Both the position numbers and the translations under genes were made by a program. Below, one piece after another: positions 5,937 through 23,610 of a stretch of DNA of 64,000 nt. The notes under the pieces were generated by a model. It made no database searches, was not told the DNA's origin, and saw nothing but the letters and a program-made list of their open reading frames with translations. Source of the DNA: Antrodiella citrinella (lineage: Eukaryota; Basidiomycota; Agaricomycetes; Polyporales; Steccherinaceae); contig SGPM01000027.1 in the NCBI GenBank assembly GCA_004802725.1, forward strand, positions 1 through 64,000, given 5' to 3'. The first letter of the stretch is position 1; each line of letters opens with the position of its first letter.

Positions 5937-5950
5937 CATGATGTCTTCGC

Positions 5951-6628
5951 CAGCTCGAGTGGGCGTCCCCTGTCTCCACCTACGGCGAGAANTTTTTCCT
6001 GACACTTCAAAATGTGGTAGTGACGCTATCCATACTCTACTACCCTTCCTCTCTCCGTCCTTCCTCCACGTCGAAGTCCACGAAGATTGCTATCGCGCTT
6101 GTTGCGACCGCCGCAAGCGCGTTCGCGCTCGTGTCTGCTCCCCTCTCCACGCTGTCCTTCCTCCAGCTCACCACCATCCCGCTCTCGCTGTTCTCAAAGC
6201 TCCCTCAGATCCGCCAGAACGCGGTCTTGAAGTCCACGGGCCAGTTGTCCGCCCTGGCTGTTGTCGCGCAGATCCTAGGCTGCGCCGCACGTGTGTTCAC
6301 AACGTACGCCGAGGTCGGCGGCGACGGTGTGCTGATGGTTGGGTTCCTCCTCGCTTTGGTGCTGAACCTCGTCGTGGGCGTGCAGATGTGGGCGTACTGG
6401 GGACGTGATGCGGAGGAGAAGGAGAAGAAGCTGGTACCTGAGAGCGTGGTGGCGCCGCTGCGAGAGAAAGAGGGAAGCCCCGCACCGACGTGGAATACCG
6501 AGCCTACACTCATTCAGCCGCAGCCACGGTCGCCAAGCGCGACGGGCAGAGCGTCGCCCGCGCCGAGAGCGGGGTCGCCGCATATCAGGCAGCCTTCTGG
6601 GCGGAAGTGGGCGCGCAAGGTGGACTAG
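5951..6628 (+). pseudogene. MPDU1: 5'-truncated MPDU1-like PQ-loop protein
   Basis: The frame open from about 5951 to the stop at 6628 encodes the second half of a mannose-P-dolichol utilization defect 1 homologue. It has STYGE followed by FFLTLQNVVVTLSILYYPSS, then the second PQ-loop (FSKLPQIRQN, STGQLSALAVVAQILG), an ARVFTTYAE loop and a last membrane helix, followed by a Pro/Ser-rich cytosolic tail with an RxxR-type basic end. MPDU1 is an ER membrane protein needed for use of dolichol-linked mannose and glucose. The family is about 250 aa with two PQ-loops. Here everything before the third or fourth helix is missing and the foldback element lies immediately upstream. A putative acceptor (CCAG at 5950-5953) is all that is left of the preceding intron. 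One base is N. Probably non-functional unless the first exons lie elsewhere. Confidence 0.68.
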
Positions 6629-7643: not shown

Positions 7644-9655
7644 TTATGCGGCTGGCTCGGCTGGCAGCGAGCGTAGAGCATCATCCAATTCCCCGATGTA
7701 GGCAACTGCATTTGTTTGTAACCATTCGGCAAATGCCACGTAGCAGGCCTTTGCCCCAGCGTCGTTGTGATCCAATCGCAGTGGCTGAGGGTGTGGGTTG
7801 CGCACTCGGGCACGTGCCCTGACCTGTGGGGTACGTAGTAATCAGCATATGTCGGTGCCTCAGTCCAGAGGATGCCTAACCGTGTTCAGATGGTTGCAAT
7901 ACTGTCGTTCATGTATGGGTAAAACTGAGACTGGGGGCAATCTACGACGCAAGAGTGGAATAGATCCAAGAATACGTGACAATCGCCCGTTTCCGTCCTA
8001 GTAGGCAGAATTCGCAGTGAGGTCAGTATACGTTACGTTCCATAGTGGTACAATGGTGTTCAAGTATAAGTATTACATGCCTCGAAAGGGTGTATGGTCG
8101 TGAAGACATCTTGTATCCATACCGAAATGATGAACGGGTCCACCCTCGGATCCTTATCGAGCTTCAAAAGCAGGGTCTGGGGAGCAATTTGCATCATCAG
8201 TCGGATCAGAGTTACTCGCTAGAAAGGATACTGACGTTGAACGTCTCGCAGAATGAGGCAAGTTCCGTCTCGACATCGTCGAAGGGACAGTATTGGATGA
8301 ACCCATCCGCCCACACTGAGGTTACATTGATGCGGGTATTCGAACGAAGTTGACCTGCAACGGTATATCGCATCGACGGATTTTCCTGCGTGTTCGGCTG
8401 ACGTCGAAAGACGATCCGACTTTTGTCCATGAGCAGACGATGAATCCTGCGAATGTTCGCCGGTTGCAAGTTGACCGTGACGGTCTGAGGATTATTGAGC
8501 ATGTTGAATACCTCATGCATTGCCTAATAAGCGGAAAAAGGTATGTCTCTTGAGGATACGCGATATATAGAAGAGTACATAAATCACGAACATGAAATGT
8601 GTCTTGAAGCATCGATGTGGTGTAGGTCGCATCGACTGAGGGATCCATGTGTTCGATCATTCGAGCCACTATGGGATCAAAAAGCCCTATTTGCACCAGT
8701 TGAGTTGTATGCTAGAATCATGAACAAATATGGCCATGATGAGCACGTCGTGTTTATGTAAATGAGTGTGATAATGGTACGAACCGAGCGGTTTCGAGTC
8801 ACGGAGCCTTCGAAGGCCACGGTTTTTATACTCCAAAAGGTGCAGCATTTTTCAATGACACGAGAAGAGATGCGCGCAAGACCTAGCCATTGGCGACTGA
8901 TTTCCTGGGTGAGATTAAGATCGGAACATGACCAGGTTGATGGAGGTCGACCGGCGTACACGGACGTGCTGCGCCATCTCTGTCCGGATAGGATAGGTCC
9001 AAGCAGTGCTTCACCGGTCTTGTACCCGCGAACTGGTGTCCGGCATCAGCTTGACCAACTATCTATCAGGTTATCAACAAAACATACGCTGATCACGCGT
9101 TGCTTGTCTCGCGATAGGACTTTGTTCATTCACCCAAGCTACCAAGGCATCATATTCTTGACCTTGTAATAGTCCAGCTATCAGGGCCAGCTTTAAAGGA
9201 TTCCATCAGCGCATTCGTGTGGAGTCTGGGCAGACTTTGATTGAGACATACCTCTTTGTACAGGTCTAGCGCGTGTTCGAGACGTCCAAACCACCACCGC
9301 ATGTCGGCAACTATCAGCATGAGGTACGGAAGGCGGGGATACGAGCCTTCCAGAGTATACTCCCAGAAAGTGGCTGCTTGTGCAAAATCGACAAATCTTC
9401 TGGTCGGCGTGTTGCACGTTGTCATGAGCTTGTTGAATCTCTCGCGATCCATGGCATGCATATCAGCGTGTATGTTGCCTATATGCTATAAATATCCGAA
9501 CAAATATTATTTAATCAGTTGTGGTGCCGGGTATCATGAAATGCTCGACATCGTACCGGCATGGGTATGTGCCTAATTAGAGGTCTCGAATCGTTGTAGA
9601 AGTATTGGATTGGTGTCAACGGCTGCGGACTCTCCTCGCTCCAAATACCAGCCAT
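7644..9655 (-). CDS. Fic (Fido) domain protein B, 494 aa, nine exons
   Basis: Exons 9655-9557, 9485-9252, 9190-9088, 9032-8785, 8711-8592, 8523-8236, 8176-8081, 7997-7881 and 7823-7644 sum to 495 codons with all phases closing. Fic proteins transfer AMP (or remove it) from target hydroxyls. The catalytic loop reads HPFE/DGNGRLSR (His about 393), matching HPFx(D/E)GNGRxxR; the slash marks an intron with a GC donor. TVAFEG (Glu about 220) matches the (S/T)xxxE(G/N) autoinhibitory motif of class II Fic enzymes such as FICD. Between them lie an IHRLLM helix and a flap followed by FIQYCPFDDVETELASFC. Residues about 60-115 form helical, TPR-like sequence. No signal peptide or membrane helix is seen, so a cytosolic site is inferred. 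It is a tandem paralogue of the gene at 10448-12363 with the same exon phases. Confidence 0.85.
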
Positions 9656-10447
9656 GGTGCGACGCTTGTAAGTCAAATCACGTGTGTGGACTCCGCTGTC
9701 GAGACCCGGGTGAGACCAACTGTGGCGCAGCTTTCAGGAATTGCATACAACAACAACTGTAGTAGGAACGCGTAAGCTTGCATACGCACCAAGTGTATCA
9801 CTGTATTCAAGCTAGAGATTGATATTTCAGAGCCTAAGAGGAAACTGAGGAGTGAGAGTAGTAGAGAGACTCGGAGAAGCACACTGCGACAATCACAGTC
9901 ATTCGAGGGGTTTTATATTCGACCCACTGGCAGAGCTGTGACCACATATCACGCCCCAGTATACTCCTGGGGCCTGTTATTGTTCTACTAGGGCGTCACC
10001 GAATACGATAATTTGCATCTTACGGAAACTAGTATGAAGCTAAGGTCTATGAAGGTTGGTTGAAGTAAACACGCCATGACCCTTTCCTGGCACCTGTTAT
10101 TCTTCTTCGTCAGTCTGGGGCAGAAGTAGTACCACGCCACGACCCTTTCCTGGTGCCTGTCCGTCTTCTTCGTTACTAGGCCGCCACCGAAAATCTGCAT
10201 CTTACGGAAACTATGATGCTCAATGTCCGTGCACATTAGAAAGTACCACGCCATGACCCTTTTCTGAGACCTATCATTGTCCTTGGTTGTTTCGTACTAG
10301 GGCGTCACCGACAATCGCACGATACTACGGGACACATGAAGCCAGTGCAGCAAGATCCGACTAGAAGAATCATGTCGTGACCCTTCTTCACAATGTTGGC
10401 AGTCAGGACTGTCCGTACAATCAGGTAGATACTGTTCGAATACACTT
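9656..10447. other. Intergenic between the two Fic genes, with diverged repeats
   Basis: Promoter region of Fic gene B and 3' flank of Fic gene A. Most of it is an irregular array of diverged repeats (9955-10390). Confidence 0.6.
9955..10390. repeat. Irregular array of diverged direct repeats
   Basis: Two motifs recur. One reads ACTAGGGCGTCACCGA and is followed in two copies by TGCATCTTACGGAAACT (about 9986, 10175 and, shortened, 10296). The other reads ACCACGCCATGACCCTTTCC (about 10069, 10132, 10245 and degenerate at 10367). Spacing is uneven, roughly 60-120 bp, so this is an eroded array rather than a clean satellite. Its function is unknown. Confidence 0.6.
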
Positions 10448-12363
10448 TCAAGTCGAGCCTACGAAGTCGTCGGGGAGTCCATACAAGGTTGGGAAGTCTT
10501 TGACTATTCGCACACATCTCGCCACCGACTCAGCAAGATACCACTGTAATCGGCTAACATCGCCGTTTCGGGCCTCCCTGGTCTGGGAAGATGTCAGACG
10601 CAGTGATGTCAGGGGCACGAGGGATCAACGGACCTGGTTGAGATATTGATTATAGCGAGGCCAGAGTGAATCGATAGGTGATATGGAGATTGGTGGAAGA
10701 CCATGCCGTATCAACGGAATCGATGAGAGCAACCGCGCCATTCTGCCATTTCCATCCTACACAGAGCTTAGATATCCCCACCGATGAACGGACACAAAAT
10801 ACATACCTCGAAAGGATGGATTGTGATGAACACATGGTGAGCCCACGCGGCAGCTGCGAAAGGATCGATGTCGTCCCGACGAAGCAGAGCCTATTCTGAA
10901 GTCAGCATCTAGACCTGAATAAACTGTCCGACACGTACGTTGAATCGAGAACAGAAAACTTCCAATTCGACGTCAACATCGTCGAAAGGACAGAATTGAA
11001 TGATGCCGCGTTGAGTATTTACTACGACGGTAGAACGGGATGTTCCACGTGTAATACCAGCGTTGACATAGGAGACGCTATCCTTGCCTTGGTGAGATTT
11101 TACTTGCAAGACCTGCGAGGTACGCATGAGTGTCCTATGTATGTCGCATATGATGTTCGTCGAGATAATTTGCTGCTCGGGATCTTGTTGTGTAAACGCC
11201 AATACCGCTTGCAGGGCCTAGCTCGAGTCAGCGTTGTACGCCGGCAGTCATGGGGTATTAGAGATGGTCACCTTGCGTGTATCTTGTAAGATTAAGATTG
11301 CATCATCCAAGTCCCGAACCGTCCCCTCCTCGATGTAGCGCGCTTGCGGTACCATTCGCAAGTTTATATCTCGAATTCTGTCGAATCCAATTTCTGATAT
11401 CTCATAGATAACCTGCATTGGTGGAGATTTAGATAATGAATTGTGCATATAAACATCATACATACATCTTGGCTGAATCGACAGACACCCTCAAGAGCAA
11501 TTGTGTTCATGCAAAGGAAGTTGTAGTATCTGCGAGAAAAAACATCCAGTCGATTACGTTCCTGCCACACTTTGAACATTTGTATCATGATGTATCCTTT
11601 ATCTAGAACGGAGGTGGGGAAGTGTGCATCGTTTATCACTGTTGATCGCCATTCTTGACCAGGCATGATGGTGAGTGCAGACCCGGTCTTATATGCGTCC
11701 ACTAACAGCGTCGCCGCGTGTTAGTCTCATTGTTGCGAACGTGAGTTCTTACGACTTACAGATTTCACTCGTCTGTCTCCACACCGCAGAGCGAGCTGCA
11801 CGTGTCCACCGCTCCAACGATACATCCCCACATTCTGCGTTCGCCTAGAGCAGGTTCGTAAAGCTCTGCGATATAGATTGAAGACGCCACACTGAACTCA
11901 CCTCTTGGTACGCCTGAATGGCAGTCACCTTGCTTCCAAAACGCCATCTGACTTCGGCCACTTTGCACAGAAGGAAAGGCAGTCGATAACCTTGCTGAAT
12001 CAAGCCTTCCCAAAGTCTGGCTGACGACACAACAGAGCGCAGATCAGATGGATCGAAGTCGAGGGAACGAACGAGATTGGCATGTAGTAAAGGACCGAGG
12101 ATATCTACGTGTGGCACCTCCTATAATATCAGTGAGTGTAAGCATAGTGCACAGAAATCGGAGCACGATGCACGTACCCTAAATTTGAGATTGCGGAGGA
12201 CCGGGATATCGCTAATGGCGCGCTCGAGAGAAACGTCCGAATCCTCGATGTGGTCGGATGTCGAGCCATTGTGAGAGGTGCTTTCGTCGGTCATATCAGG
12301 TTGCGTAGTTTTCGATGATGGTGGTAAGGTCGCTGGGAGTCTGTCAAGGTGTGGCGTAGACAT
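10448..12363 (-). CDS. Fic (Fido) domain protein A, 495 aa, nine exons
   Basis: Exons 12363-12178, 12120-11902, 11844-11760, 11701-11466, 11412-11272, 11217-10939, 10890-10807, 10756-10634 and 10582-10448 give 496 codons in phase. The catalytic motif HPFE/DGNGRMAR (His about 407) is complete and is split by a GT-AG intron between Glu and Asp. TIALEG (Glu about 234) matches the class II inhibitory motif. Between them are CDIHRTLM, NAGITRGTSRSTVVV and IIQFCPFDDVDVELEVFC, which correspond to the IHR helix, the target-binding flap and the following strand of FICD-type proteins. After the motif, ARNGDVSRLQWYLAES resembles the C-terminal helix of FICD. Residues about 70-165 are helical and TPR-like. 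No signal peptide or membrane anchor, unlike ER-resident animal FICD. Expected activity: AMPylation and possibly de-AMPylation of a cytosolic protein. Confidence 0.87.
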
Positions 12364-15017: not shown

Positions 15018-15087
15018 TACCTACAACATACTCTTCGAAGACACATCTACGTACTTATACAGAGAATGAGAATAAGAAATTTATTAT

Positions 15088-17176
15088 TTATGACGCTCCA
15101 GCGGCGGCGAGAAGAGCGGGGAAGTTGGGAGTACCGAGACCAGTGACCTAGAGAAACAATCAGCTTCATGCGTCGGGCAAGTATCATCCAACAACTCACA
15201 GGGTCCCAGCCGGCCTTGGCGGGGAATCCGTTCGTGTTGCAACCGGGGTTGTCGCCAGTGGTGATGTCGTTGAAGGCCTGCGGGTTGGCGTACAGGAAGG
15301 GGTTCAAGAACCCGAGAGGTGACTTGCCCTCGGCGATCAGCCTGTCGTTGATGAGGGAGATCAAGCTGGCGAAGATGGGGCTGGAGCAGGACGTGCCGGA
15401 GACCGATGTGGTCTTGCCGCTGAGAACGATCTCAACGCCGTCACCAATGGCAGAGACGTCGGGGTAAGCACGTCCGGTCTTCGTGAACTTGCCGGAGTTC
15501 GTGTTTCCGAGAGCGGAGAGGTATGCGGAGACGGCGGAGGCTTGGTAGGATGGTTGAGTGAAGACGGTCGAAAAACCACCGGAGGAGAATGAGGCGGAAG
15601 TTTCCGGAACACTCGAGGTGGCACCGACCGAAGTCAAGCTATTTTATCATTGGAGTCAGCAGGTAAGATGGCGCGATGAAAGCGCGAGACACTCACAAGG
15701 GGCAGCCCGAAGGGAAGGTGGGCACGAAGGTGCTGCAGCTGCCGCTCTGAGATCCAGAAACACCACCGTCGCCGGAAGCGAAGAGGATAGATGTTCCACG
15801 AGCACCGAGTTGTTGGTAGGCATTGCAAAGTTGGCTGTCGCATATTCAGCAAAATGAGAGTGGTTGATAGAACGAGACAAGGTACTCACTTGGCCAGGGT
15901 CGAAGAGATAGTGTTTTCGTTCTGGCCGTAACTGGTGGTAAGGACGTTGGGAGGGTTGGACTCGCCGAGCAAGAAGTTGATGATATCCAAGAATCCCTCA
16001 AGATCACCGTCTTGGGTGTTTTCACCGACGGAGATAAAGGTGGTTGGGACGCCGGTGGCAAGACCAACGGTGTATTGAATATCCAAGTTCTGCCAGAAAC
16101 ACTATCAGCAGGAAAGAAATCACGAGGAATACCAATACGTACAGCTTCGTCGCTAGCCTGCCTAGGGGACTGAGGATTCGAGCCACCGTCAAGAGTCTGG
16201 AGGGTGAAGGTAGTGGAGGACGACATATCCTGGCGGAAGTCCGACAAGAACGTCTGTGGTCACTTTGTAAGCAGAAATCCTCAAAAGAAAACACTATTCG
16301 GTATACCTTCAGATCAGCTGAGTTAGCGTACTGCTCAATGAATCCGCTGACTCCAATGGTGTTGGACGACTCAGTCGCGGGCGTCGTAGGGACGTCATAG
16401 AGAGCCTGGACGCAAGCCGGAGTCACGGTATTTGCGCATGACGACGGAACAGCGTTGGAGGTCAAGTTGGCCGCTGGGTTGAAGACTTTCGCTGGGGTAG
16501 AGAACACGGGAAGATGGCCAAGTGGGTTGGGGAACCTGGAAGAAAACATTGACGTCAGAAAGACGTATCATCGTGAGGGCCATATGTCTTACGAGATCGT
16601 AGGGTGAACGAGTTCAACGTGACCAACGAGGTCAGTAGGGATGGAGTAAGCCAAGGTGCGGATCGTCGCATCGCCAGTCTCGACGTGCGTGAAGGTCGCG
16701 AAAGACGCGTCGAGGAGCTCGCTGGCCTTGCTCACTGGGACTTCAACGGCAATCCAGTCCCCGGTAGGGCTGATCTTAGTCGAGTTGAGGCCGTTCTCGG
16801 AGAGCCACTGGTTGACGGCCGTGACGGTCTCTGCCTTCGGAGCAACGAATGCTTCAACCTACGACCGTGATATCCATCAGCAACTTTCGGGAGATGTTGA
16901 GCAAATACGACAGACCTCTTCCTTGGACAAGTGCTGGCGGAAGTTGGCACTGGTAGGTTCGCTGACGTCGAGGAGCGCGGCAGTAAGACCCGCAGGGTCG
17001 TTCTGCGCAAGAGCAATGCGCAGCTTGAGCACTGACTCCGGGGACGCGGCACCGCTGTTCACGAAGCCGTCCGGGATCCCAGACCTGGACTCGTGCAACT
17101 GCATAGTGCGACGGCTGAGAGGGTTGCCCATGGCTAGGGAAAAGAGGGAGATGATGAAGAGAGTAGTAGCCACCAT
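15088..17176 (-). CDS. Sedolisin-family (S53) secreted peptidase, tripeptidyl-peptidase-like, 567 aa
   Basis: Eight exons (17176-16916, 16858-16593, 16535-16307, 16253-16143, 16089-15890, 15834-15697, 15638-15200, 15147-15088) total 568 codons in phase. A signal peptide (MVATTLFIISLFSLAMG) is followed by an S53 pro-domain to about residue 180. The mature domain has the catalytic Glu288-x3-Asp292 pair, Asp378 in ASGDGG for the oxyanion hole and Ser485 in SGTSCSSP, followed by the calcium site pattern (DITTGDNPGCN, GWDPVTGLG). These enzymes are acid serine peptidases that cleave tripeptides or act as endopeptidases outside the cell or in the vacuole. All key residues are present, so the gene looks functional. 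A truncated copy lies at 21902-22557 and a frameshifted copy at 41385-43416. Confidence 0.9.
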
Positions 17177-21701: not shown

Positions 21702-22557
21702 TTCGTGGCGATAGTTGCCAAAATCCGGCATATCGGCATCCATCAGCATCACCACCGAGCTTCAAGCTCCGCGCGGACGTGCAGCTTCGTTATGAATAAC
21801 GCGACTCGAGGACGCATCTACGTACTTATACACAGAACGAGAATAATAACAATCCTTTGATCAGGAATACACAGCAACAGACTAGACAAAAACAGCGAAA
21901 TTTATGACGCTCCAGCGGCGGCGAGAAGAGCGGGGAAGTTGGGAGTACCGAGACCAGTGACCTGGAGAAACAATCAGTATCATGCGTCGAGCAAGCATCA
22001 TCAAACAACTCACAGGGTCCCAGCCGGCCTTGGCGGGGAATCCGTTCGTGTTGCAACCGGGGTTGTCGCCAGTGGTGATGTCGTTGAAGGCCTGCGGGTT
22101 GGCGTACAGGAAGGGGTTCAAGAACCCGAGAGGTGACTTGCCCTCGGCGATCAGCCTGTCGTTGATGAGGGAGATCAAGCTGGCGAAGATGGGGCTGGAG
22201 CAGGACGTGCCGGAGACCGATGTGGTCTTGCCGCTGAGAACGATCTCAACGCCGTCACCAATGGCAGACATGTCGGGGTAAGCACGTCCGGTCTTCGTGA
22301 ACTTGCCGGAGTTCGTGTTGCCGAGAGCGGAGAGGTAGGCGGAGACGGCGGAGGCTTGGTAGGATAGTTGAGTGAAGACATTCGAGAAACCACCCAAGGA
22401 GAACGAGGCGGAAGTCTCCGAAACACTCGAGGTGGCACCAACTGAAGTCAAACTATGTCATCAATGCAGTCAGCAGGTGAACGGGGTGATGAAAGCGCGA
22501 GACACTCACAAGGGGCAGCCCGAAAGGAAGGTGGGCACGAAGGTGCTGCAGCTGCCG
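21702..22557 (-). pseudogene. 5'-truncated sedolisin copy with duplicated 3' flank
   Basis: The block copies the last part of the sedolisin gene at 15088-17176. It starts abruptly within exon 6 (breakpoint at about 22557, GCTGCCG) and runs through exons 7 and 8 to the stop at 21902. Identity is very high, including both introns and the SGTSCSSP catalytic serine. Signal peptide, pro-domain and the catalytic Glu/Asp are absent, so no active enzyme can be made. Similarity continues about 190 bp past the stop into sequence that, in the parent locus, is the 5' end of the neighbouring 14035-15017 gene. It is therefore a segmental genomic duplication, introns included, and not a retrocopy. Confidence 0.85.
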
Positions 22558-22648: not shown

Positions 22649-23506
22649 TCAAGGTTGTGGGGTCTGCGCCTCCCATTTCAGAAGTGACTCCTCCTGTCTT
22701 CGCAAATCGCCTCTCAACCATTCCACCCAACCAACGCCAAGGGCTTTGATGACTGTTCCGTCTACTGCCACCATCGTGCCTTTGATTCGAGCTCCCAACC
22801 CGTCTCCATCAACAACCAACATTTCATCTGCATCTCTATAGTGCTCAACTGTCAGGATACGTCGTATGCCGAGCAGCAAGCACCAATCGCCGCTAGGTCT
22901 CCCAGCTTGACTAATCGCAGCAGTGCATTCAAGGACGTCATCGGAATTGGAGGTTTTCCTCAGCCGATGTTTGTATGCCCGAAGGATGATGGGCGCCAGG
23001 ATATTTCTGATGCTGCAAGTTGGTTGGAGTGCGTAGAATATGTCAGTGAATGAAGATTCCAGATCGGATATAGAACTCCGAAGTCCTGGCCAGGTCCATG
23101 TCGTGACCGCCTCTGCAGGCCATTCTAGTAGCCATAGACGAAACTCGTCTGGAAGGTGCACTAATTCCTTTCGAAACTTCAGTGGGATCAAGACAGATGT
23201 GTACCCTTCCCGAACCCATGGCTGCAGGCATGGAAGGATGAATTTACGCGACTCGGCGAAGGCGGGGGATTCTATGGCCTCTAGGTAGAATTGAAGGAGT
23301 GCGAGTCGGGCGGGACACAGCGAGAGGGTGGTGAATTCTCGCCACTGTCGTGACACTCCTCGCGCAGCAATGAGTGACTTCAGCGGGAGATGCCGCAGGA
23401 TGGAGAGAACGAGTTCGTTGGGAATGGAATGGATCGTGAATGTCTTCCGTGTGAGAGCACTTTCGACTGGCATCGATGCTTCTTGGAATCGATAAGACGT
23501 GTCCAT
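22649..23506 (-). CDS. F-box protein, 285 aa, intronless
   Basis: A single open frame from ATG 23506 to the stop at 22649. Residues about 27-62 are a clear F-box (IHSIPNELVLSILRHLPLKS, then ARGVSRQW). Further conserved blocks shared with the paralogue at 32110-32976 are LYLEAIESPAF (LQFYLEAIESPAF here), LPDEFRLWLLEWP, TWxWPGL, GDWCxLxGI and LGVGWVEWL. F-box proteins link Skp1/cullin ligases to substrates; the C-terminal part here is a family-specific region of unknown partner. The gene lies about 90 bp from the breakpoint of the truncated sedolisin copy. No disruption is seen. Confidence 0.8.
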   Translation of the reverse strand: MDTSYRFQEASMPVESALTRKTFTIHSIPNELVLSILRHLPLKSLIAARGVSRQWREFTTLSLCPARLALLQFYLEAIESPAFAESRKFILPCLQPWVREGYTSVLIPLKFRKELVHLPDEFRLWLLEWPAEAVTTWTWPGLRSSISDLESSFTDIFYALQPTCSIRNILAPIILRAYKHRLRKTSNSDDVLECTAAISQAGRPSGDWCLLLGIRRILTVEHYRDADEMLVVDGDGLGARIKGTMVAVDGTVIKALGVGWVEWLRGDLRRQEESLLKWEAQTPQP

Positions 23507-23610
23507 ACTTGTGGACAGCGCGAGAGGAGAGCAGAGCGTGTTGCCACTGTTGGCAGGCAGCGGTTGGTTACATAATCTATTTGTAGCTGTTGTCCAAGGT
23601 CCCCATCATC

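Follow-up and report, generated by a model that had tools for sequence, protein, structure and literature searches.

Are Fic proteins really missing from fungi? According to one passage of a 2025 review, plants and fungi have no eukaryotic Fic protein (PMC12409994), and a passage of a 2016 paper likewise excepts fungi and plants (PMC4854385); a 2009 paper reports, in the part concerned, that Fic/Doc sequences were found in 'a few fungi' (PMC2686095). The question is raised by a stretch of 64,000 nucleotides (the window, positions 1 to 64,000 of contig SGPM01000027.1) from the wood-decay fungus Antrodiella citrinella, placed by taxonomy look-up in the Polyporales, Steccherinaceae, in which two neighbouring minus-strand genes, A and B, code for Fic-domain proteins. 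This A-B pair consists of real, intact FICD-like genes of an under-described fungal family and, judged by their sequences, A and B together with their Agaricomycete relatives contradict the general statement that fungi lack Fic proteins. No study of a fungal Fic protein was found by title in the open literature, a scope outside which most subscription journals lie, and this fits the remark in an earlier note on this DNA that the role of these enzymes is hardly studied in basidiomycetes. Protein databases already list such genes as 'fido domain-containing protein', and that they exist is therefore documented, even if they are unstudied. What could be added to the earlier note is that the genome holds seven Fic genes or remnants, including a lesioned second A-B pair, and that A is constrained and B evolves faster.

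An intact pair of Fic genes

Both genes (Table 1) have an uninterrupted reading frame up to the terminal stop codon and identical intron phases after exons 1-8 (0,0,1,0,0,0,0,0), and the intact nine-exon models originally proposed, with their lengths, coordinates and phases, were recovered without change. GT-AG boundaries are found in 15 of the 16 introns, the exception being the GC-AG intron 7 of B. Seven of the eight intron positions fall in the identical column of the A/B alignment, and the first one is offset by 3 columns in the poorly aligned N-terminus; the two proteins are 31.6% identical over 430 aligned columns. A second pair, A'-B', found at another place of the genome (C110, see below), retains all eight introns in both genes, with intron 7 of B' being GC-AG like that of B, and this conservation supports the models of A and B independently of RNA data. 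Other borders were considered for exon 5 of B and discarded: one option hits a stop codon, and the adopted border matches the phase of A and is kept in B'. A leader exon 5' of A was also rejected, as the open frames there are not conserved in the paralogue. Translation of A may start at Met24, giving a protein of 472 amino acids, since a deposited relative (P0001) begins there and the paralogue alignment begins only at residue 21. Over the final 126 coding bases of their first exon (12178-12303 in A, 34785-34910 of C110 in A') the two genes differ at only 2 sites, the gene-wide difference between A and A' being 10% at replacement sites and 29% at silent sites, and this near-identity of the 5' ends looks like the result of recent gene conversion.

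The two proteins belong to the Fic/DOC family (PF02661) by profile score, by catalytic motif and, going by a modelled relative, by fold. In the profile search both exceeded the Pfam Fic cut-off of 24 bits, A with 58.5 bits (E 1.2e-15) and B with 38.3 bits (E 2.5e-9). The catalytic motif, HxFx(D/E)GNGRxxR in the family, reads HPFEDGNGRMAR in A and HPFEDGNGRLSR in B, confirming that all the residues of HPFEDGNGRxxR are kept in both, and upstream of it both carry the inhibitory motif (S/T)xxxE(G/N), as this is defined for Fic proteins in a passage of PMC12409994. The motifs were tabulated for 44 chosen rows (A, B, A', B', the A-like copy C152, 35 named fungal and 4 unnamed metagenome proteins), a set that leaves out the copies at C326 and C522 and the truncated P0001. 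Among these rows the inhibitory pattern is missing in C152, P0014, P0016, P0018, P0019 and P0126, and the full catalytic pattern in C152, P0021, P0029 and P0031.

A family member other than A and B was modelled (predicted local distance difference test score, pLDDT, 94), and its structure agrees with those of human FICD and of bacterial Fic proteins; the Fic fold, whose absence in a structure prediction would have counted against the earlier note, is thus borne out for this relative. In the family protein P0012 the inhibitory motif sits at the end of a predicted helix (173-192). The fold of the N-terminal piece resembles tetratricopeptide repeat (TPR) proteins, FICD included, with no single score being significant, and by sequence no TPR model was among the families matched by 38 rows. 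No membrane-like segment was detected in A or B on a simple hydropathy scale, which is no signal-peptide predictor (peak 19-residue values of 0.95 and 0.96, respectively), in agreement with the original observation that no membrane anchor is visible.

Table 1 Features of the A-B pair in the window and of its counterpart at C110; motif coordinates were counted by hand from the exon table and the sequence
Feature	Position	Strand	Details
Gene A, Fic-domain gene	10448..12363	minus	nine exons, 495 amino acids; Pfam Fic; eight introns kept in A'
Gene A exons	12363-12178, 12120-11902, 11844-11760, 11701-11466, 11412-11272, 11217-10939, 10890-10807, 10756-10634, 10582-10448
Gene B, Fic-domain gene	7644..9655	minus	nine exons, 494 amino acids; Pfam Fic; eight introns kept in B'
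Gene B exons	9655-9557, 9485-9252, 9190-9088, 9032-8785, 8711-8592, 8523-8236, 8176-8081, 7997-7881, 7823-7644
A autoinhibitory motif TIALEG	11487..11504	minus	residues 230-235
A catalytic motif HPFE/DGNGRMAR	10733..10818	minus	split by intron 7: 10818-10807 + 10756-10733
B autoinhibitory motif TVAFEG	8806..8823	minus	residues 216-221
B catalytic motif HPFE/DGNGRLSR	7974..8092	minus	split by GC-AG intron 7: 8092-8081 + 7997-7974
A-B spacer	9656..10447	no strand	792 bp, A stop codon to B start
A'	C110 34785-36638		aligned extent
B'	C110 37434-39333		aligned extent

Copies and remnants in the genome

We searched the genome (30.0 Mb in 602 contigs; the deposited draft of the species is given as 33 Mbp in 1228 contigs in a passage of PMC12878558) with the A and B proteins. 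With C326 counted once, there are seven Fic genes or remnants, four of them lesioned (A', B', C152 and C326), and they are distributed over five places: C190, C110, C152, C326 and C522. These two protein queries gave no further place in the genome at E values up to 10, and the count is a lower bound, as exons were scored singly and only the best candidates were taken. A six-frame scan of the whole genome with the Pfam Fic model gave a match to gene A only, because exons match one by one, and the others were found by the protein queries.

The C110 pair has the order and direction of the pair in the window. Exon 7 of A' carries one frameshift and exon 6 of B' is interrupted by one in-frame stop, lesions that could be assembly errors. 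Its spacer measures 759 bp if B' starts at the nearest in-frame ATG, versus 792 bp in the window, and the two spacer sequences do not align; the one in the window holds direct repeats of 17-47 bp belonging to four families (9965-10311). Similarity between the two places ends 194 bp before the start codon of A and 240 bp after the stop codon of B, and the flanks at C110 (6.5 kb before and 3.0 kb after the matching stretches) had no match anywhere in the window. With the similarity breaking off just outside the pair at either end, the C110 pair is ruled out as the other allele and identified as a dispersed duplicate. One deposited Antrodiella citrinella protein, EUX98_g6027 (P0001), equals the A' model over the first 266 of 273 residues, in agreement with the origin of the window from this species; the rest of it, a tail following exon 5, apparently reads on into the intron.

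C152 is A-like, its model requiring two frameshifts and one stop, with the HPFEDGNGR core still readable and the last arginine of the motif absent. At C326 (20329-21629, L058) the 3' part of a Fic gene is duplicated: an A-like 3' half, which has a frameshift and an R replacing the catalytic H, is followed by a second 3' fragment with the motif HPFEDGNGRLSR. The Fic gene at C522 is more distant and, on a long branch, clusters with unnamed metagenome proteins (support 94/83). Inverted repeats of ~1.3 kb, 77-85% identical, flank it (L059 193-1579 and 6577-7906). The A-B unit has thus been duplicated in this genome, with one copy lesioned, and the family gains and loses members.

Around the pair in the window we saw no link to the Fic genes for a PQ-loop repeat protein (5942-6625) or an F-box protein (22652-23605). 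Two closely similar minus-strand open frames at 15050-15643 and 21885-22457, pieces for which Pfam gave no match, look like a secreted protease of sedolisin type in duplicate.

Constraint, divergence and relatives

A and B are both held as proteins, A being constrained and B looser but not neutral. The comparison of A with A' gave a nonsynonymous divergence (dN) of 0.109 and a synonymous divergence (dS) of 0.360, with a dN/dS of 0.30 (95% confidence interval 0.22-0.41), and that of B with B' gave 0.342 and 0.621, with a dN/dS of 0.55 (0.43-0.70); none of 1000 bootstraps reached 1 for either gene. The highest dN/dS of any 50-codon window was 0.73 for A, in the last, short window, and 1.03 for B, in the window that begins at residue 113. 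A neutral simulation, in which half of the observed changes were placed randomly on one lineage, kept the frame of A free of stops in 31 and that of B in 3 of 2000 runs. At 58 near-invariant positions of the family at least 90% of 19 Agaricomycete rows agree, and 54 of these are retained in A and 51 in B. Furthermore, with C152 as a third row, A has 20 and A' 18 private changes over 315 residues, and these similar numbers indicate that the frameshifted A' has not run ahead.

It could still be argued that only A is a working enzyme and that B is a relaxed duplicate heading for loss and kept by chance. Its higher dN/dS, its differences over codon positions 1/2/3 (157/120/154 versus 61/42/102 for A) and its long branch in both trees described below speak for such relaxation, and the in-frame stop of B' and the frameshift of A' show that this genome does damage such genes. 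However, a B without stops is expected neutrally in just those 3 of 2000 runs, its dN/dS stays below 1 in all 1000 bootstraps, and both motifs are kept along with the near-invariant positions mentioned above, so that we consider this explanation unlikely.

Relatives were drawn from the best 120 of 733 and the best 120 of 1185 proteins, with 7997 scored candidates each, and from a third list comprising all 15 matches. Antrodiella, Cristinia and Hebeloma are Agaricomycetes by taxonomy look-up, and the remaining relatives we take to belong to this class as well. A tree of 31 rows groups the B genes with two Cristinia proteins and one Steccherinum protein (98/93), apart from A, and one of 41 rows places them in the same way (95/90). 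A tree constrained to unite A, A', C152, B and B' is only 5.3 log units worse and is not rejected by the approximately unbiased (AU) test (p 0.325). Cristinia belongs to the Agaricales and Antrodiella to the Polyporales, and the B grouping departs from the species relationships; it may be partly owed to the long branch of B. An old split between A and B is favoured by these trees, not proved. The proposal that the pair serves two separate conserved functions is only partly borne out: A is clearly constrained, but B is looser, with its dN/dS of 0.55 against B' and its long branch, and the AU result leaves A and B as possible sisters.

Could the Fic genes, instead of being a housekeeping stress regulator, form a fast-turnover set that serves conflict, be it among nuclei, strains or fungal species, and in which the two members of the pair work jointly? 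Seven genes or remnants at five places with four lesioned, and a fast-evolving B, would suit such a role, and among the matches listed two distinct family members, 38-57% identical to each other, are found in five other species (Pholiota molesta, Agrocybe pediades, Hebeloma, Psilocybe cyanescens and Cristinia), with only a hint that the two copies lie on one contig in Pholiota molesta and Agrocybe pediades. Antrodiella citrinella is also considered a mycoparasite, associated with Fomitopsis pinicola, in a passage of PMC12878558. Nevertheless, hydropathy revealed no membrane-like or export-like segment, A is constrained, turnover by itself is no proof of conflict, and the Lentinula and some Postia rows, 95-98% identical, may be one gene from two assemblies, all of which makes the idea very doubtful. 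An equally long shot would be a multi-copy, anchor-less, autoinhibited system of the Agaricomycetes for tagging with adenosine monophosphate (AMP), in which a constrained A and a fast-diverging B are inherited, copied and lost as a unit and act in self/non-self matters or antagonism. Finally, although horizontal spread of Fic genes is thought to occur according to a passage of PMC2686095, a recent acquisition from bacteria is hardly credible with eight introns common to A, B, A' and B', and with the closest named relatives among the matches listed being all fungal and the bacterial ones there far weaker.

Proposed mechanism and known Fic proteins

The reading that we prefer, and regard as probable by analogy with characterized enzymes, is that A and B, like FICD but with no membrane anchor, are autoinhibited Fic enzymes that transfer AMP, with the domain layout, switch and target choice that follow. 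A TPR-like helical N-terminal domain would precede the TxxxEG helix and the Fic core, in which HPFEDGNGRxxR lies. The helix glutamate would pair with the final arginine of this catalytic motif, keeping the enzyme AMP-removing or idle; in FICD, as stated in a passage of PMC12409994, the motif glutamate pairs with the catalytic-motif arginine and also acts in AMP removal. Upon release of this clamp adenosine triphosphate would bind productively and AMP would be moved to a hydroxyl of the target. A and B may also remove AMP in addition to transferring it. The N-terminal domain would select the target, in the cytosol or the nucleus, and by analogy only cytosolic Hsp70 might be the first candidate, since members of the Hsp70 family, elongation factors and histones are reported in PMC4854385 as proteins that C. 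elegans FIC-1 modifies. With FICD-like enzymes that have no visible anchor, in hosts open to gene deletion, AMP tagging outside the endoplasmic reticulum becomes testable.

The bacterial proteins BT_2513 (3cuc) and SoFic (3zcn) have the Fic fold and the catalytic motif in common with A and B. Among solved structures 3cuc is the best sequence match for both genes and ties with FICD in fold, which slightly lowers our confidence in the preferred reading. The alignment with 3cuc covers the model only from residue 157, near the inhibitory helix, so that the N-terminal domain lies outside what is shared. The match of A and B to the SoFic-type equivalog model (NCBIfam NF046030) is far below its cut-off, with 39.1 and 25 bits versus 550 bits.

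Human FICD/HYPE, of the animal proteins that attach AMP to other proteins, and C. elegans FIC-1 share with A and B the Fic core, a TxxxEG-type motif ahead of it and HPFxDGNGRxxR and, going by the predicted fold of a relative, perhaps also a helical TPR-like N-terminal domain. In contrast to FICD, A and B show no transmembrane-like segment by hydropathy; identity is 18-22% over the structurally aligned region, and the N-terminal domain is placed differently (root-mean-square deviation near 19 Å in a whole-chain alignment). A single Fic gene is described for animals in passages of PMC12409994 and PMC4854385, whereas this fungus has several genes and remnants. Further known relatives are the Agaricomycete 'fido domain-containing' proteins (for example Hebeloma P0012, Amanita P0003, Steccherinum P0023, Cristinia P0028 and P0122), which are among the best matches listed, with 32-40% identity to A and B, and have the same domain order and motifs; within this family A differs by its own first exon in place of the usual FxNxxRP start, and B by its long branch.
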